DNA from: Gemmatimonadaceae bacterium
Lineage (GTDB): Bacteria; Gemmatimonadota; Gemmatimonadetes; Gemmatimonadales; Gemmatimonadaceae
Direction: 5' to 3'
Assembly: GCA_016742275.1 (NCBI GenBank)
Contig: JACVCD010000010.1
Location: forward strand, 1-64,000
Length of the DNA: 64,000 nucleotides
Below, piece by piece: positions 16,597 to 57,295 of this stretch. The notes beneath the pieces were generated by a model. It did not search any database and was not told the origin of the DNA. It saw only the letters and a program-made list of their open reading frames with translations. How positions within the stretch are numbered: position 1 is the stretch's first letter; each line of letters opens with the position of its first letter. Position numbers and translations under genes: made by a program.

Positions 16597-18903
16597 TTAG
16601 GCGAAGACTCCTGTCGGACGGAACTCGCGAACACGCTTGCCGGTGAGGGCAAACACCGCATTCGCGATGGCCGGTGCCACGGGCGGCACACCCGGTTCGC
16701 CAACACCACCATGTGGCTTGCCGGATTCCACGATGGCTGTGTGAATCTTCCGCGGCGCCGCCTGATTTCGCACCAACTGCAGCGTATCAAAGTTGCGCTG
16801 CTCGGCCGCACCCTTGGCGTGCGTGACACCACCATGAATGATGTGGCTCATACCACTCAGCACGGATCCCTCGAGCTGCGCATGCACACGATCGGGATTG
16901 ATGACCTGACCGGGGTCGAGCGCAATCCACACTTCATCCACTGACACTGCCCCGTTGGATGACGCGCGCACACTGGCCACGACGGCCGCGTACGAATTGA
17001 AGCTGCGATGCGCGGCGATACCGAATCCGCGACCGGCAACACCTGCGCGCTCCGACCAGTTGGCCATGGTGGCCACATGCTTCAGCACACCCTGCAGTCG
17101 TTCACCATCGACCGGATGCTCTTCGAGTGAACCACCGTAGTTGCCGAGTTCCTTGATGCCGAGATCCTGCAGTGTGTGAATGCGTGCCGGGCCGTAGAGC
17201 TCGAGCAGATTGTCGAGTGGATCCTTCTTTCGCGCGCTCGCGACTTCGTCGAGAAAACTGTTGATGGCAAACGCGTGGAAGATGTTGTACACCGAACGCA
17301 ACCAACCCACACGCACATGCGGCGCGGCCTTGCAGGCTTCGATGCGCACATTGGGTACATCGAGTACTACATCGAGCATGCCCTGCTGCAAGTCGCCGGC
17401 AGACGCAACATCAACGCCGGGCGCAAACGTGGAACCAATGGGCGGAAACGCCGTGCGATGACGCCACGCGGTAACCTTGCCGTTGCTATCCAGACCTGCA
17501 GTGAGATGCTGCGCGCTCACTGCATTCAAGTAGTCGTTGTGAATGTCGTCCGTACGCGTCCACTGCACACGCACGGGTTGACCAACGGCCTTGGACACGA
17601 GTGCGGCTTCCGAGCAGAAATCAGCTTTTGATTTACGACCGAATGCACCGCCCAGCAGCGTGACATACACCTGCACCCGATCTTCGGCGATACCAAGCGC
17701 ACGTGCGACTTCGGTGCGCACCGCCTGCGGATTCTGCGTGGGCGCCCACACTTCGCAACTGCCACCACGCGCCACATTGTAGCGTGCGAGTGCAACCGGC
17801 GGCTCCATCGACGCATGCGCCAGATGCGGCACGTAGTACTCGGCTTCAATCGTGCTCGCCGATGACTTGAGAGCGGCATCGACATCACCCACGTTGCGTT
17901 CCGCTGTACCAGGCGCGCGCACCGACTTGAACAACTCATCGCGGTACGCTGCGGTATCGTAACTCGCATGCGCCGCGGGATTGTCCCACGTGAGTTCGAG
18001 CGCATCACGGCCCTTCATGGCCGCCCACGTATTCTCGGCTACCACCGCCACACCACCCCACGGCTGGAATCCGTACGGAGGCTGCGGATGCGGCATGTCC
18101 ACCACGTGCCGCACACCCGGCACCTTGAGTGCCGCATCGCGATTGTATCCACTGGGCTTGCCACCCAGCACGGGCGGACGTGCGATCACGGCAATGAGCA
18201 TGTCGGGCACCGACACATCGGCACCAAACACCGCCTTGCCCGACACATAGTCTGGGCCATCAATCAACGGCAGCTTGTTCGTACCGACGCGCTTGAGCTC
18301 CGCATTGGGACGCAGCACGACTTTGTCTGCAGCGGGCACCGGCAGCGCACCGGCCGCAATCGCGAGATCACCGAACTTGAGCTTGCGCCCCGAGGCCGCA
18401 TGCACGACCTCGTGATTCTCGGCTACGAGTTCGCTCTCGGGAACCTTGAGCTCTGCCGCGGCAGCCGAGATGAGCATCATGCGTGCGGTAGCGGCAACGG
18501 AGCGCATACGCTGGTACACACCACGCACACTACTCGAGCCATCGGTGTTCTGATCGCCATAGGCTGCGTTGCCTTCGCCCTGGATGACACGCACATGCTG
18601 CATGTCGGCGCCCAGTTCATCGGCAAACAACACGGGTAATGAACTGCGAACACCCTGCCCCATCTCCGAGCGATGGCACACCACTGACACGAGGCCCGTT
18701 ACCGGCGCCACGTGAATGAACACGTTGGGATTGAGACCCTTGAAGTCGGCGTCGTTGTCGGGATTGAGCGCCGAGTACTTCTCGAATGGCGAACGCTTCT
18801 GCCTCGGGGCATACACACCGAAGTAGAGACCAACCGCTGTCAGCCCCAATCCGCCAACAAATACTCGGCGCGTGATCAGTGACTTGTCCGATTCACCAGA
18901 CAT
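16597..18903 (-). CDS. Tat-exported molybdopterin-binding subunit of a xanthine dehydrogenase-family oxidoreductase (IorB-like)
   Basis: 768 residues. A Tat signal is visible (TRRVFVGGLGLTAVGLYFG, residues 11-29). It carries the duplicated MoCo-binding architecture of isoquinoline 1-oxidoreductase/aldehyde dehydrogenase beta subunits: GGAFGRKSKADF and the active-site glutamate segment GGVGEPGVPPVAPAIANAVF near the C terminus. A separate 2Fe-2S subunit is encoded directly upstream (2-nt gap on this strand), as in the Ior two-subunit type; no FAD subunit is present, so electrons probably go to a cytochrome or membrane acceptor. The physiological substrate is unknown (aldehyde or N-heterocycle). 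Confidence 0.93.
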   Translation of the reverse strand: MSGESDKSLITRRVFVGGLGLTAVGLYFGVYAPRQKRSPFEKYSALNPDNDADFKGLNPNVFIHVAPVTGLVSVVCHRSEMGQGVRSSLPVLFADELGADMQHVRVIQGEGNAAYGDQNTDGSSSVRGVYQRMRSVAATARMMLISAAAAELKVPESELVAENHEVVHAASGRKLKFGDLAIAAGALPVPAADKVVLRPNAELKRVGTNKLPLIDGPDYVSGKAVFGADVSVPDMLIAVIARPPVLGGKPSGYNRDAALKVPGVRHVVDMPHPQPPYGFQPWGGVAVVAENTWAAMKGRDALELTWDNPAAHASYDTAAYRDELFKSVRAPGTAERNVGDVDAALKSSASTIEAEYYVPHLAHASMEPPVALARYNVARGGSCEVWAPTQNPQAVRTEVARALGIAEDRVQVYVTLLGGAFGRKSKADFCSEAALVSKAVGQPVRVQWTRTDDIHNDYLNAVSAQHLTAGLDSNGKVTAWRHRTAFPPIGSTFAPGVDVASAGDLQQGMLDVVLDVPNVRIEACKAAPHVRVGWLRSVYNIFHAFAINSFLDEVASARKKDPLDNLLELYGPARIHTLQDLGIKELGNYGGSLEEHPVDGERLQGVLKHVATMANWSERAGVAGRGFGIAAHRSFNSYAAVVASVRASSNGAVSVDEVWIALDPGQVINPDRVHAQLEGSVLSGMSHIIHGGVTHAKGAAEQRNFDTLQLVRNQAAPRKIHTAIVESGKPHGGVGEPGVPPVAPAIANAVFALTGKRVREFRPTGVFA

Positions 18904-18905
18904 GG

Positions 18906-19379
18906 TCAGTTCTCCGCGCTGGCGGGCATGTTCGCGGCCACGGCCTTGATGGCTTCACGAATGCGCATGTACGTACCGCAGCGACAGATGTTGCCATTCA
19001 TGGCTTCTTCGATCGCTTCCGATGTCGGCGCCTTGTTGGCGGACAGCAGCGATGCGGCCTGCATGATCTGACCGGGCTGACAGTAGCCACACTGCGGCAC
19101 ACCAAGCTCCACCCACATCTTCTGCAGCGGATGCGAGGCGTCGGTGGCAAGACCTTCGATGGTCGTGATGGACTGCCCGCTCACGGAACTCGCCGGCGTG
19201 ATGCACGAACGCACTGCGGCGCCATTCACATGCACCGTGCACGCGCCACACAGCGCTTGGCCACACCCGAACTTCGTACCGGTGAGTTTGAGCACGTCGC
19301 GGATAGCCCAGAGCAGCGGCATGTCCTTCTCCACGTCGATCGTGCGATCCTCACCATTCACCTTCAGCTTGACTTCCAT
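18906..19379 (-). CDS. (2Fe-2S)-binding subunit of the Mo-hydroxylase (IorA-like)
   Basis: 157 residues. The plant-type ferredoxin cluster CGQALCGAC with a later Cys (VRSC) lies at about residues 38-60, and the second cluster motifs CGYCQPGQ and CRCGTYMRIRE in the C-terminal helical domain, as in all XDH small subunits. ATG at 19379 is preceded by GGAGG with 7-nt spacing, so I rejected the 40-residue N-terminal extension that the open frame allows. Transcribed with the Mo subunit; divergent from the gamma-glutamyltranspeptidase. Confidence 0.95.
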   Translation of the reverse strand: MEVKLKVNGEDRTIDVEKDMPLLWAIRDVLKLTGTKFGCGQALCGACTVHVNGAAVRSCITPASSVSGQSITTIEGLATDASHPLQKMWVELGVPQCGYCQPGQIMQAASLLSANKAPTSEAIEEAMNGNICRCGTYMRIREAIKAVAANMPASAEN

Positions 19380-19530
19380 CCGGGTGCCTCCTGCGGCGTG
19401 CAACTGGTATGGCTCCATGGTGGGCATGGGGAACGCGCCGCGCAATGGCGTGCGGGCGACGACCCACCTGGAGACCGTATATTCCGCACGCGTTACCATC
19501 CCTCCCGCGTTCCTGCCACTTCATCCGCCC

Positions 19531-21546
19531 ATGTCGACTTCTGAACTGGTGCGTGCTGGCGCCCGGCGTTTCTCGTCGCGCATCGCCCCTCGGCTGCTCG
19601 CTCTGTCCCTTGCGACAGGTGTCGCACCCTTGGCAATCACATCGCTCGGCGCGCAGAGCGCTGATGGTCTGCCCATACAAGCCGCCGATCCACGCCGCTC
19701 GCCCACGCAGAAACCACCGCTGCATGGTCGTCATTGGATGGCTATCACCGGCAAGCCACTCGGCGCCACCGCCGGTGCGATGATGTTTCAGAAGGGTGGC
19801 AATGCCGTCGATGCGGCCGCCGCCATGCTTGCCGCCACCTGCACGATGTGGGACACATTGCACTGCGGCGGTGAAACGCAGGCGCTGATCTACCATCCGA
19901 AACTCAAGAAGGTCATCGGCATCAATGCGCTCGGCGTTGCGCCAACTGGTGCCACCGCCGAGTTCTACCAGAGCAGGGGTTACGCGCATCCGCCCGAGTT
20001 CGGACCACTCGCGGCCATCACACCGGGCACACCCGGTGGATTGATGGTGATGCTGGCCGAATACGGCACACTGTCATTGGCGCAGGTGTTGGCGCCGGCC
20101 ATTCAGCTCGCCGATGGATTCCCCATCGAAGCGCAACTCGCCAACAACATCGAAAGACAGAAAGCCGAGATCAAGAAGTGGAAGGTGTCGCCATCCATCA
20201 TGCTGCCACATCTGGGCAGCGGTGGACGCGAAGCACCGGAGCCGGGCGAGATGTTCGTGCAGAAGGATCTCGCAGCGACATTCCGCAAACTCGTCGCTAC
20301 CGAAGCCGCAGCGCGCAAAGCCGGCAAGTCACGCAAGGCCGCCATCATGGCCGCATATGATCGGTTCTACAAAGGCGACATTGCGCAGGAACTCGTGCGC
20401 GGTATGCGCGAAGACGGTGGACTGTTCACCATGGCCGATCTCGCCAATTGGCGCGTGAAAATCGAAGAACCCATCTGCAGCGACTACAAGGGCATTTCGG
20501 TGTGCAAGCTGCAGCAGTGGCAGCAGGGCCCAGCCATGCTGCAGGCGCTCAACATTCTCGAGAATGCCGATCTCAAGAGCATGGGCTACAACTCACCGCG
20601 CTACGTGCACACGATCTATCAGGCCATCAGTATGGCGTTTGCTGATCGTGATTTCTGGTACGGTGATCCGGCGTTTGCGCCAGAAGAACCGATGCGCGGC
20701 CTCATGAGCAAGGAGTACGCAAAGGCGCGCTACGCACAGATCAACTGGACGAAAAACGATCCCGACATCAAGCCGGGTGATCCGTACCCGTATCAGGGCG
20801 GCAGCAATCCGTTTGCGCAGTATCTCGCGCAGTGGTCACCGCGCAATTTCCTGCCGCGTGACGCCACGGTGCAGAGTGGACAGCAGGATCGTGTGCGCAC
20901 TGATACTTCGGCCGCGTGGCAACTCGCCAGCCGCGCCGACAGCGCACGTTGGGATGCATTTCACGGCGGCACCACCAGCATCGAAGCCGCCGACTCGGCA
21001 GGATGGGTGGTATCCATCACACCAAGCGGTGGCTGGGTGCCGGCCGTCATTGCCGGTCGCACGGGACTCGGTCTATCGCAACGCGGCCAGAGTTTTGTCA
21101 CTCGTCCTGAAGACGGGCCATTCAATGTCATCGAACCGGGCAAACGTCCCCGCGTGACACTCACGCCCACACTGGCCCTCAAGGATGGCGCGCCATTCCT
21201 GGCCTTTGCTGTGCAGGGCGGCGATACGCAGGATCAGAATCTCCTGCAGTTCTTCCTCAACATGGTGGAGTTCGGCATGACGGTGCAGCAGGCCGTGGAA
21301 GCGCCGAACATCAACTCGTACCAGATGCGCAATTCATTTGGCTTTCATGAGACGCAGCCGGGCTTCATGGAGATTTCGTCGTCGATGCCGGAGGCCACGC
21401 GGGCCGCGTTGCGTGGGATGGGGTACCGGCTACGGCCCCTGGAGCGGACGTCCGGGCCGATCAATGCGATCTGGTTTGACCGCAAGCATCGGACGATGTG
21501 GGGTGGGAGCTCGAATCATGGGGAGGATTACGGGATCGCGTGGTAG
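19531..21546 (+). CDS. Gamma-glutamyltranspeptidase-family Ntn hydrolase, exported
   Basis: 671 residues with a signal-like N terminus (LLALSLATGVAPLAITSLGAQS). The large-subunit region shows MAITGKPLGATAGAMMFQKGGNAVDAAAAMLA. The autocleavage site is GGTTSIEAAD, giving Thr481/Thr482 as nucleophile candidates; canonical enzymes read TTHxSVxD, so the following His is Ser here. The small subunit carries the FNVIEPGKRPRVTLTP and VQGGDTQDQNLLQFFLN segments, and ends GGSSNHGEDYGIAW. It would process periplasmic gamma-glutamyl compounds or related acyl substrates. It lies between two Mo-hydroxylase pairs, and the next pair follows in the same direction after a hairpin. Confidence 0.9.
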   Translation: MSTSELVRAGARRFSSRIAPRLLALSLATGVAPLAITSLGAQSADGLPIQAADPRRSPTQKPPLHGRHWMAITGKPLGATAGAMMFQKGGNAVDAAAAMLAATCTMWDTLHCGGETQALIYHPKLKKVIGINALGVAPTGATAEFYQSRGYAHPPEFGPLAAITPGTPGGLMVMLAEYGTLSLAQVLAPAIQLADGFPIEAQLANNIERQKAEIKKWKVSPSIMLPHLGSGGREAPEPGEMFVQKDLAATFRKLVATEAAARKAGKSRKAAIMAAYDRFYKGDIAQELVRGMREDGGLFTMADLANWRVKIEEPICSDYKGISVCKLQQWQQGPAMLQALNILENADLKSMGYNSPRYVHTIYQAISMAFADRDFWYGDPAFAPEEPMRGLMSKEYAKARYAQINWTKNDPDIKPGDPYPYQGGSNPFAQYLAQWSPRNFLPRDATVQSGQQDRVRTDTSAAWQLASRADSARWDAFHGGTTSIEAADSAGWVVSITPSGGWVPAVIAGRTGLGLSQRGQSFVTRPEDGPFNVIEPGKRPRVTLTPTLALKDGAPFLAFAVQGGDTQDQNLLQFFLNMVEFGMTVQQAVEAPNINSYQMRNSFGFHETQPGFMEISSSMPEATRAALRGMGYRLRPLERTSGPINAIWFDRKHRTMWGGSSNHGEDYGIAW

Positions 21547-21726: not shown

Positions 21727-22230
21727 ATGCCGATCACGCTCAAGGTCAATGGCGCGTCCCGCACGTTGGATGTGCCGCCCGATATGCCGCTGCTCTGGGT
21801 TCTTCGCGACGAACTGAATCTCAAGGGCACCAAGTTCGGCTGCGGCGCGAATCGCTGCGGCGCCTGCACTGTTCACGTGAACGGCGTGGCGCAGCGCACC
21901 TGCACCATGCCCGTGTCGCGTGCGGCCGGCACCGAGATCACGACCATCGAGGGTCTCGACCCCAATGGCGCGCATGCCGTGCAGAAGGCGTGGGAAGAGC
22001 TCGACGTCCCGCAGTGCGGCTACTGTCAGGCCGGCCAGATGATGGCGGCGGCCGGTTTGCTGGCCAAGACGGCCAAGCCCACCGACGCTGACATCGATAC
22101 CGCGCTGAACACGAATCTCTGCCGCTGCGCTACATACCTGCGCATTCGTGCGGCCGTGCATCGTGCCGCCGAGATCAAGGCTGGTGGTGCGGCGGTTGGC
22201 AGCAGCAGTGGCGCGCCGGGGGAGGAATAG
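21727..22230 (+). CDS. (2Fe-2S)-binding subunit, second Mo-hydroxylase pair
   Basis: 167 residues. Clusters: CGANRCGAC plus QRTC (residues 38-60), then [10 protein letters not shown] and [12 protein letters not shown]. It ends in a Gly/Ser-rich tail ([14 protein letters not shown]) that the 18906-19379 homologue lacks. The gene ends 3 nt before the Mo-subunit start and clearly forms an operon with it. It is paralogous to, but not a recent copy of, the pair at 16.6-19.4 kb. Confidence 0.95.
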
Positions 22231-22233
22231 ATC

Positions 22234-26202
<3,969 letters not shown>

Positions 26203-53754: not shown

Positions 53755-54219
53755 TCAGGGCACGGGTTGTTCGCCCCTCGCTGGTTCTCCTTGTCCCTGA
53801 AGCGTTGCCCACTCCTCATCGGAGTAGAGTCGCGACCGGGTCAGGAAGCGCATACCCTCGGGCGTTTCGACGCTAAACCCCGCCCCGCGACCCGGCACCA
53901 CATCGATGCACAGGTGCGTGTGCTTCCAGTACTCGAACTGTTCGCTGCCAATATAGAACGGCGTGTCCGCAATGACTCCCAGGAAGACATCCCGGGAACC
54001 AATGCGGAACTCACGACGCGGATAGCACATGGGCGTACTGCCATCACAGCAGCCGCCCGACTGATGGAACACCAGCGGCCCGTGGAGCGCCTGCAGCCGG
54101 TGCAGCAGTGCTGCGGCGGCCGGGGTCACGCTCACACGGGCAACCGGAGTTTCCACGTTACCTGCTTCCATGTCATGCGACATGTCGTGTGCTTCCGTTT
54201 CAGCGATCGACTTCTCCAT
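53755..54219 (-). CDS. DUF779 protein, aldehyde dehydrogenase partner
   Basis: 154 residues. Family segment VFHQSGGCCDGSTPMCYP with conserved Cys, then FYIGSEQFEYWKHTHLCIDVVPGRGAGFSVETPEGMRFLTRSRLY. A short His/Met-containing N terminus precedes it. DUF779 genes are regularly adjacent to ExaC/AcoD-type aldehyde dehydrogenases, as here, 4 nt downstream. Role unresolved; perhaps a metal-dependent accessory. Confidence 0.9.
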   Translation of the reverse strand: MEKSIAETEAHDMSHDMEAGNVETPVARVSVTPAAAALLHRLQALHGPLVFHQSGGCCDGSTPMCYPRREFRIGSRDVFLGVIADTPFYIGSEQFEYWKHTHLCIDVVPGRGAGFSVETPEGMRFLTRSRLYSDEEWATLQGQGEPARGEQPVP

Positions 54220-54223
54220 CGCC

Positions 54224-55777
54224 TCAGAAGAAGCCGAGCGCGTTGGGGCTGTAACTCACCAGCAGATTCTTGGTCTGCTGATAGTGGCTGAGCATCATCT
54301 TGTGGTTTTCACGACCGATGCCCGACTGCTTGTAGCCACCAAACGCCGCGTGCGCGGGATACAGGTGATAGCAGTTCGTCCACACACGACCGGCCTTGAT
54401 GGCACGACCCGCGCGATAGCAGGTGTTCATGTCACGTGACCACACGCCTGCGCCCAATCCATAGAGCGTATCGTTGGCGATGGCCATGGCGTCGTCGAAG
54501 TCCTTGAACTTCGTGACCGACACGACGGGTCCGAAGATTTCTTCCTGGAAGATGCGCATGGAGTTCTTGCCTTCGAACACCGTGGGCTTCACGTAGTAGC
54601 CACCCGCCAGCTCACCATCATGCACGGCGCGCTCACCACCGGTGAGCACCTTGGCGCCTTCCTGCTTGCCGATGTCGATGTAGCTCAGGATTTTTTCGAG
54701 CTGATCATTCGAGGCCTGCGCGCCAATCATCGTCGCAGGATCCAGCGGATGGCCCAGCGTGATCTTGCCAACGCGATCGAGGGCGCGCTCCATGAACTTG
54801 TCATAGATGCTTTCGTGCACGAGCGCGCGTGACGGACAGGTGCAGACTTCACCCTGATTGAGTGCGAACATGGTGAAGCCTTCGAGCGCCTTGTCGAAGT
54901 AGGCGTCGTCGGCATCCATGATATCGGGGAAGAAGATATTGGGCGACTTGCCACCCAACTCGAGCGTGACCGGCAGCAGATTCTCCGACGCGTACTGCAT
55001 GATGAGACGACCCGTGGTGGTCTCACCGGTGAATGCCACCTTGGCCACACGATTGCTCGATGCGAGCGGCTTGCCGGCTTCCACACCAAAGCCCTGCACC
55101 ACATTCAGCACGCCGGGCGGCAACAGATCGGCAATGAGTTCCACAAAGGCCATGATGGCCACCGGCGTCTGCTCGGCCGGCTTGAGCACCACCGCATTTC
55201 CCGCCGCGAGTGCAGGAGCAAGCTTCCACACCGCCATGAGCAGCGGGAAGTTCCATGGAATGATCTGCGCGACTACACCAAGTGGCTCGTGGAAATGATA
55301 GGCAACCGTGTCGTTGTCGAGCTCACCGGCTGAACCTTCCTGCGCGCGCAGCACACCCGCGAAATAGCGGAAGTGATCAATGGCGAGCGGAAGATCGGCG
55401 GCCTTGGTTTCGCGAATCGGCTTGCCGTTGTCGATCGTTTCAATCACCGCGAGCGCTTCGAGATTTTCTTCGAGACGATCGGCGATCTTGTTGAGGATGA
55501 CAGCACGTGCGGACGCCGAGGTGCGTCCCCATGCCGGTGCGGCCTTGTGTGCAGCGTCGAGTGCGAGTTCAACGTCTTCGGCAGTCGAACGAGCCACGTC
55601 GCAGAGATGTTGGCCGGTGATTGGCGTGGGATTGCTGAAATACTGCCCGCGCACTGGCGCGCGGAATTGACCATCGATCCAGTTGTCGTAGCGCGTCTTG
55701 ATGGGAATGGTGACCGCGTACTTGGCGGCACCCTGCGGGAGCGTAGCGGCGTGGTCGGGACGGGCTGTTGATGCCAT
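54224..55777 (-). CDS. NAD-dependent aldehyde dehydrogenase (AcoD/ExaC type)
   Basis: 517 residues. Full ALDH fold: NAD-binding [27 protein letters not shown], catalytic glutamate LELGGKSPN, catalytic cysteine GEVCTCPSR (about C312), and [10 protein letters not shown]. The N terminus [12 protein letters not shown] is the AcoD/acetaldehyde type. Oxidises acetaldehyde or similar short aldehydes in the cytoplasm. The open frame runs to 55978, but the ATG at 55777 has a GAGAGG upstream. Transcribed with DUF779. A sigma-54 promoter lies 71 nt upstream. Confidence 0.95.
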
Positions 55778-55847
55778 CTGCGTGCGCCTCTCGTGTGGCG
55801 GTGAGGAGTCTTCCGGCGGGAAGGAGGCCGGGACATCCACAGATGAG

Positions 55848-55862
55848 GCAATGCCGGTGCCA
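55848..55862 (-). promoter_or_regulatory. Sigma-54 promoter of the aldehyde dehydrogenase-DUF779 operon
   Basis: Minus strand TGGCAC (55862-55857), five nt, TTGC (55851-55848): the full TGGCAC-N5-TTGC sigma-54 (-24/-12) consensus. It points toward the aldehyde dehydrogenase start 71 nt downstream. The invariant GG and GC have correct spacing. Confidence 0.85.
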
Positions 55863-55983
55863 CGTGTGATGCGGCAGATGCTGCCGCCTCTTCGTATGTG
55901 ATATGCGCTCGCGTAACTCACGCACGGAATGGCAGATGCGTCGGGCTCGCTGGCATCGGCACAAAAGGAGCGGCACACGAAGT

Positions 55984-56035
55984 GCGACAGTTGTCGCGCC
56001 GCGTGTGCCGATTGTGTGTCGATTGTCGCGCGACA
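55984..56035. promoter_or_regulatory. Two TGTCGC/GCGACA dyads, likely enhancer sites
   Basis: GCGACA-GT-TGTCGC (55984-55997) and TGTCGCGCGACA (56024-56035) use the same half-site. They lie about 120-175 nt upstream of the -24 element, the usual distance for enhancer-binding activators such as AcoR. No activator gene is in the window. The 279-bp gap (55778-56056) holds no gene. Confidence 0.65.
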
Positions 56036-56056
56036 GATGCCGCGCTTACTACACCG

Positions 56057-57295
56057 TCAGGCGGTCACTTCAGCGGCAACGGGAGCGGCTGAAGCCGCGC
56101 GTCGACGCCACGCCACGAACCGGCGCAGCGACAGGGCGAGACCTGTGTACACAAGGACGGCCCCGCCAAGCGAGACGAGACCGGCAATGGTCTGTCCCCA
56201 GAAACCGAGCACTTCACCGGTGTGCGTGAAGCGCATGATGGAGCGCGCACGGCGGCCCACGGACTGATCACCGAACACCGCCCACTTGGGTGCATCACCG
56301 GTACGCGAAATGGTGAGTGTCGCGCGCTTGTGCGGCTCACCACCCATGCCGCGGTCGATGGAGTACACGAGTGGTGCGTCCGCCGCCTTGGGCCACGCCA
56401 GCGACATGGAGCGCCAGTCCGGCATGCGCTGCGCGGCGAGGGCGTAGACATCACCCACGAGTGGCGCACCAGGTTTCGCCGTCTCGCTTCCGCGCCCTTC
56501 GCTTCCGCGTCCTTCGCTTCCGCCGCTCGCGCTTCCGCGGTTCGCTGTTCCCACCGCCGGCGCCGGTGCAGGCGCTTCTGCTCTCGCCGGCGGCTCCTCT
56601 CCAACAACGCGATACACGAGGTCACTTGCCCACGGAAACGAAATCACCGTCGCACTGGCCACGACGGCCGCGAGCGGAATCGCACTCCAGATACCGATGA
56701 CATTGTGCCAGTTGAAATCGCGCGCCTTTGCCGACAGTCCCCGGCGAAACACCAGCACCTGCTTCGTGGCCTTCCACGTGAGATTGCGCGGCCACCACAA
56801 CACCATGCCGGTCAGCACCAGCACGAGAAAGGCAAGATTGCTCACGCCGGTCACGAGTTTGCCCGTGGCGCGCGAATCATCCTTCATGGCCAGCCAGCGA
56901 TGCCAGTCGGTTGAGACCTGGAACACTTTGCGCATGAGCACACTGCCGGTGCCCACCACTTCACCCGTGTAGGCACTCAAGTACTGACGTCCTTCCCGAC
57001 CGAACTGCACCTCCACCGGCATCGTCGCGCCATAACGCCACACCACATTCGTTGGTGTCTTGGTTTGACCAGCGCTTTCCCGCGCAGCAACCAGTGACAA
57101 CAGGGAATCCGGAGTCAATCGTTCTGCATTGGGCGTCGGCGGGCCGGCTTCCACTCCACGCAGATCTGCCCATAGTGTCATCTGCTTCTGATACGTCAGC
57201 AGTACGCCCGTGACCGACATGATGAGCACAACCACACCGGAAATCACACCGGCGACGAGGTGAGTCCAGAACAGAACGGGGCGGATCGTACGCAT
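56057..57295 (-). CDS. PepSY-domain transmembrane protein (PepSY_TM)
   Basis: 412 residues. Helix 1 (residues ~8-33, FWTHLVAGVISGVVVLIMSVTG), paired PepSY-like periplasmic regions, then helices at ~140-165 (GVSNLAFLVLVLTGMVLWWPRN), ~185-215 and ~365-390 (GQTIAGLVSLGGAVLVYTG). Conserved His and Trp (TDWHRW, NWHNVIG) are typical of siderophore-reductase/iron-uptake-associated proteins. A low-complexity GSEGRGSEGRGSE linker (56.4-56.6 kb) is encoded by 15-nt repeats. Inner membrane; ferric-siderophore or metal reduction is possible. It ends beside the TGTCGC dyads. Confidence 0.85.
   Translation of the reverse strand: MRTIRPVLFWTHLVAGVISGVVVLIMSVTGVLLTYQKQMTLWADLRGVEAGPPTPNAERLTPDSLLSLVAARESAGQTKTPTNVVWRYGATMPVEVQFGREGRQYLSAYTGEVVGTGSVLMRKVFQVSTDWHRWLAMKDDSRATGKLVTGVSNLAFLVLVLTGMVLWWPRNLTWKATKQVLVFRRGLSAKARDFNWHNVIGIWSAIPLAAVVASATVISFPWASDLVYRVVGEEPPARAEAPAPAPAVGTANRGSASGGSEGRGSEGRGSETAKPGAPLVGDVYALAAQRMPDWRSMSLAWPKAADAPLVYSIDRGMGGEPHKRATLTISRTGDAPKWAVFGDQSVGRRARSIMRFTHTGEVLGFWGQTIAGLVSLGGAVLVYTGLALSLRRFVAWRRRAASAAPVAAEVTA

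Follow-up and report, generated by a model that had tools for sequence, protein, structure and literature searches.

An exaC–DUF779 operon in Gemmatimonadaceae with a predicted sigma-54 promoter, upstream palindromes and an unlinked AcoR-type activator

Introduction

Control of aldehyde oxidation by sigma-54 has been described in Ralstonia solanacearum, in which acoR (Rsc3129) and exaC (Rsc3128) have been identified, exaC is predicted to be controlled by RpoN, and growth on ethanol requires rpoN1 (PMC4676750). A further described system is AdhR of Clostridium beijerinckii, a GAF-type sigma-54 activator of alcohol and aldehyde genes that acts through several upstream sites, as established by EMSA and mutants (PMC7017808). 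In the main text of a 2025 survey of sigma-54 regulons, NAD aldehyde dehydrogenases are listed for Bacilli and Gammaproteobacteria only, and Gemmatimonadota are not mentioned. Our literature search found no worked-out circuit of the AcoR–RpoN–ExaC sort for this phylum, and no paper on its exaC–DUF779 operon or on the function of DUF779. The circuit itself is already known from other bacteria; what differs here is the phylum, which has been little studied, the detached regulator and the geometry of the palindromes.

The exaC–DUF779 operon and its control region

We analysed a 64,000-nucleotide stretch (the window) of a Gemmatimonadaceae genome of 4.57 Mb in 33 contigs (G000). It contains a two-gene operon in which the second gene lies 4 bp downstream of the first:

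54224–55777, minus strand: exaC-type acetaldehyde dehydrogenase, 517 amino acids (P0002), assigned by NF050026 and its PDB relative 9koi
53755–54219, minus strand: DUF779 protein, 154 amino acids (P0001), PF05610, E 5e-46

P0002 scores 937.7 bits against the NCBIfam model for ExaC (NF050026, curated cut-off 900), and its best named PDB relative is ExaC (9koi, E 1e-231). Dehydrogenases 79–86% identical to it are carried by Gemmatimonadetes MAGs, from which we take the genome to be Gemmatimonas-like. P0001 reaches 155.2 bits against PF05610, for which the gathering score is 25. The cysteines and the histidine of its HQSGGCCDGS-PMC motif are invariant across Gemmatimonadota, and DUF779 adjoins ExaC across phyla; the protein may assist ExaC as a partner that depends on a metal or on thiols. 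The gene preceding the operon encodes a 412-amino-acid PepSY-type membrane protein and contains short in-frame repeats (GSEGRGSEGRGSE, 56485–56545). Elsewhere in the window, two isoquinoline-1-oxidoreductase-like (molybdenum hydroxylase) two-gene sets (16597–19499 and 21727–24513) are arranged around a gamma-glutamyltransferase-like gene.

The region upstream of the dehydrogenase gene contains the following elements:

55848–55862, minus strand: sigma-54 (-24/-12) promoter element TGGCACCGGCATTGC, an exact match to TGGCAC-N5-TTGC
55984–55997, unstranded: promoter-proximal candidate enhancer palindrome GCGACA-N2-TGTCGC, GCGACAGTTGTCGC, centred 141 bp upstream of the -12 GC
56024–56035, unstranded: distal candidate enhancer palindrome TGTCGCGCGACA (N0), centred 181 bp upstream of the -12 GC
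55787–55792, minus strand: ribosome-binding site GAGAGG preceding ATG 55777, read from the sequence

The initial annotation had proposed a full sigma-54 element and two TGTCGC/GCGACA dyads upstream of an aldehyde dehydrogenase–DUF779 operon. The element is indeed complete, its GG and GC separated by ten bases, and is located 71 bp 5' of the start of the exaC-type gene. Both dyads are also present, and both are perfect, but the one at 55984–55997 faces outward and does not have the TGTCGC...GCGACA order. Along the minus strand, from distal to proximal, the elements follow one another as TGTCGCGCGACA (56035–56024), GCGACAACTGTCGC (55997–55984), TGGCACCGGCATTGC (55862–55848), GAGAGG and ATG 55777. 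A mechanically called open reading frame from GTG 55978 would overlap the promoter; orthologues align from ATG 55777. From the position of the element, transcription is expected to start near 55836. Neither a sigma-70-type promoter nor a terminator was found between 55700 and 56150. Sigma-54 enhancers are looked for as conserved sites about 100–200 bp upstream, and both palindromes are located within this range.

Two copies of the exact sigma-54 pattern are present in the 64-kb window, where 0.26 would be expected. In 200,000 simulated 280-bp stretches with the trinucleotide statistics of the window, 0.09% contained the exact element, 0.005% the N2 dyad and 0.006% the N0 dyad, and none combined the element with either dyad. 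The motifs entered into these simulations were picked after the data were seen, so that conservation in relatives constitutes the independent test; as described below, this test holds.

RpoN and the AcoR-type activator

The genome contains a single rpoN gene (PF04552, E 6e-64, G000:C23:99621-100097), and a lack of RpoN is thereby excluded. It further encodes eleven sigma-54 activator (enhancer-binding) proteins whose AAA+ domain scores at full strength. Exactly one of these is of the AcoR type, combining a GAF domain, a Sigma54_activat AAA+ domain and a Fis helix-turn-helix (HTH_8), in agreement with the earlier proposal of an AcoR-like protein coded elsewhere:

G000:C24:101275-103404: AcoR-type activator, 709 amino acids, with PF01590 at residues 94–216, PF00158 at 382–548 and PF02954 at 676–696

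This protein has no receiver domain, and its gene, on contig C24, is far from the window. The other ten activators have no AcoR-type sensor, and the majority of them possess a receiver-like N-terminus.

We classify the C24 activator as AcoR-type because, in a tree of AAA+ cores, the Gemmatimonadota AcoR group clusters with AcoR proteins that are linked to ExaC in other phyla, apart from the other activators of G000 (support 97/95), with the caveats that its sigma-54-contact loop reads GAFSGA and that its inducer is predicted by analogy. The same loop is found in G022, G086, G142 and G027, and GAFTGA in G050, G088 and G100. Threonine to serine is the best tolerated change in the GAFTGA loop, and the variant is conservative. 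A quicker tree that included the helix-turn-helix placed the C24 activator otherwise, without strong support, and hinted at a chimera in which a local activator core had independently acquired an AcoR sensor by fusion. The careful core tree gave no support to such a fusion, and the AcoR sensor tree, which is unrooted, does not settle the question. Among NCBIfam models, all matches of the protein are under the cut-off and none provides a named equivalog.

The same palindrome, here GCGACACGTGTCGC, is also located upstream of the C24 activator gene itself (C24:103500-103513), about 96 bp from its start codon. Equivalent palindromes precede acoR in G022 (about 70 bp) and G086 (about 65 bp). The palindrome in front of acoR suggests autoregulation; no sigma-54 element accompanies it there.

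The regulator and the palindrome occur together in relatives

To follow the pairing across the family, we considered 148 genomes, 18 of which contain a close exaC orthologue (73–100% identity) with readable upstream sequence; G151, a genus member with an AcoR match, lies outside this comparison. An AcoR orthologue is present in nine of the 18 (G000, G022, G086, G050, G088, G100, G142, G027 and G122) and absent from the other nine (G133, G032, G044, G059, G003, G036, G066, G118 and G084). GCGACA-N2-TGTCGC is found 5' of exaC in all nine genomes with the regulator and in none of the nine without it. An out-of-sample genome from another family, G314, provides a tenth positive case, in which acoR, GCGACATTTGTCGC and exaC are arranged in tandem, bringing the count to 10/10 AcoR-positive genomes. 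Conservation of the palindrome extends to relatives with as little as 77% protein identity and to a second family. The N0 palindrome TGTCGCGCGACA is likewise present 5' of exaC in G022, G086 and G050.

Gene order varies among these genomes. In six of them (G050, G088, G100, G142, G027 and G122), acoR adjoins exaC in divergent orientation and the palindrome lies in the gap; in G000, G022 and G086 the two genes are unlinked. A GG-N10-GC element is located 5' of exaC in eight of the ten AcoR-positive genomes, at 111–184 bp from the palindrome; the -24/-12 match is exact in G000, G050 and G100 and near-exact in others. The best sigma-54-like element of G142 is weak and lies 207 bp from the start. 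G122 and G314 have the regulator and the palindrome, but no clear sigma-54 element was recognised upstream of their exaC genes. Since G044 (L040) and G118 (L044) carry a good sigma-54-like element at exaC with neither an AcoR orthologue nor the palindrome, the element and the regulator are not strictly coupled; in these two genomes another activator may have taken over exaC.

On the exaC tree, the distribution of the regulator requires five changes. A tree-aware test yields three supported independent contrasts, all of which agree for the palindrome (p 0.25), a number too small for significance.

Palindromes elsewhere in the genome

A perfect GCGACA-N2-TGTCGC is also located 110–180 bp upstream of the acetyl-CoA synthetase gene acs in G000 (G000:C19:145424), G022 and G086 (L108:3025, L110:3004, L112:3062). 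Membership of acs in the regulon is unsupported: the perfect palindrome is also found in G048, which lacks AcoR, one-mismatch versions are found in other AcoR-less genomes, and the site falls within the coding start of a divergent ABC ATPase. A palindrome at 19612 in the window, situated in signal-peptide codons (A-T-G-V-A) of the gamma-glutamyltransferase-like gene with no sigma-54 element nearby, was judged coincidental. Most of the remaining perfect palindromes in G000 lie in or at coding sequence without a convincing sigma-54 element.

Proposed mechanism and alternative explanations

Given these observations, we consider it very likely that the exaC–DUF779 operon is run by sigma-54 RNA polymerase together with a dedicated, unlinked AcoR-type activator that binds the two palindromes. 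The C24 activator would bind both sites, 140–180 bp upstream, as a multimer, with its N-terminal GAF domain sensing an alcohol or aldehyde metabolite. DNA looping would then bring the AAA+ ring to the closed complex at TGGCACCGGCATTGC, which the ring would remodel and open, and transcription would begin near 55836. The palindrome at the acoR promoter would additionally allow the activator to regulate its own gene. Standard sigma-54 activation is the most likely working mode. A response to alcohols or aldehydes is proposed because of the ExaC assignment and the Ralstonia precedent; by analogy, the inducer is probably an alcohol, an aldehyde, acetoin or an ethanolamine derivative.

The link between AcoR and the dyads is supported by the co-occurrence of AcoR and the palindrome, by the six genomes in which the two genes stand back to back, and by the palindrome at acoR. 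The same evidence addresses what we regard as the best surviving alternative, itself improbable: that the sigma-54 promoter is real but is worked by another enhancer-binding protein, with the AcoR-type protein as a bystander. G000 does offer ten further full-strength candidates, mostly response regulators, and G044 and G118 retain a sigma-54-like element without AcoR. Such a bystander would nevertheless have to track the palindrome exactly across genomes, sit back to back with exaC in six of them and in tandem in a seventh, and carry the palindrome at its own promoter.

The palindromes could instead be AcoR operators at a sigma-70-type promoter, with the TGGCAC-N5-TTGC match incidental. G122 has the regulator and the palindrome without a sigma-54 element, the acoR upstream region has the palindrome without one, and both fit this arrangement. 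We find it still harder to credit, given the recurrence of exact or near-exact -24/-12 elements at 111–184 bp from the palindrome, the sigma-54-activating AAA+ domain of the activator and the failure to find a sigma-70-like promoter in 55700–56150. Finally, GC-rich Gemmatimonadota DNA might often give rise to such motifs without a functional promoter, and the window does hold 35 matches to the degenerate TGGC-N7-TGC while single inward dyads with loose spacing number 20 in the genome versus 14 for a control, but with N2 palindromes at 9 versus 1 for the control, the joint configuration absent from every simulated stretch and conservation reaching another family, chance is the least credible explanation.

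The reading of sigma-54 control through the AcoR-type activator is therefore retained. The sites noted in the initial annotation are confirmed, and the interpretation attached to them, in particular the link between the activator and the dyads, is supported. The operon represents a well-supported member of a Gemmatimonadota sigma-54 regulon for which activator, sites and target are named jointly. Furthermore, the linked, unlinked and regulator-less relatives form a natural set that makes the pairing of activator and site testable.

Comparison with known systems

Operons of ExaC and DUF779 are often accompanied across phyla by an AcoR-type activator and a sigma-54 element 20–90 bp from the start (several Proteobacteria and one Bacillota MAG). 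In Actinomycetota, and in Methyloversatilis, the neighbour of exaC–DUF779 is a protein of 440–500 amino acids with a homologous AcoR-type sensor half (L170:3559-4830, L191:3437-4852, L201, L203, L165, L176), whereas its output is a Trans_reg_C-like domain and not an AAA+/HTH module. Lacking AAA+, this GAF and Trans_reg_C-like protein implies no sigma-54 mechanism. Sensor and target have stayed together here, with a different output module.

Among GAF-type activators, AdhR differs from the C24 protein in its alcohol dehydrogenase targets, its extra PAS domain and its TGT/ACA repeats with a 10–12 bp spacer. EatR, which serves ethanolamine utilisation in Pseudomonas aeruginosa, belongs to the same activator family, and an annotated copy adjoins an aldehyde dehydrogenase 68% identical to P0002. 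Its locus differs, however, in having an ethanolamine permease as neighbour and an R-N-T instead of an R-S-T recognition helix, and no TGTCGC palindrome was found there.

The Betaproteobacterial AcoR/RpoN/exaC systems share ExaC, the GAF–AAA+–Fis activator and the sigma-54 element with the Gemmatimonadota. Their acoR gene is adjoining or divergent in many genomes, as in some Gemmatimonadota, whereas it is unlinked in G000, G022 and G086. The TGTCGC half-site is likewise common to Gemmatimonadota and to Leeia, Variovorax and a Comamonadaceae plasmid, but its layout differs: GCGACA-N2-TGTCGC here and TGTCGC-N5-GCGACA there. In Thalassospira and Paracidovorax the sites read TGTTCC-N5/6-GGAACA. 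We compared recognition helices across 14 plasmid records and the other loci of this analysis. In a small number of loci, grouped post hoc (L164, L213, L218, L222, L240, L196, L205, L219, L239), ExaC-linked AcoR proteins with an R-S-T helix accompany TGT[CT]GC sites, and R-N-T helices are found alongside TGTTCC sites; at several R-N-T loci no palindromic site was seen.

Taken together, these comparisons lead us to a tentative joint reading, which we hold to be possible although not the likelier outcome. The recognition geometry of Gemmatimonadota AcoR would differ from that of its counterparts, with outward half-sites whose centres are 8 bp apart (GCGACA-N2-TGTCGC) versus inward ones at 11 bp, and with a helix-turn-helix not preceded by the usual G-G-N turn. 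A single recognition-helix residue (R-S-T or R-N-T) would set the half-site (TGT[CT]GC or TGTTCC) across phyla, and the enhancer would have been kept while the activator gene moved. The pattern of half-sites and recognition helices provides a starting point for understanding DNA choice by AcoR-type activators.
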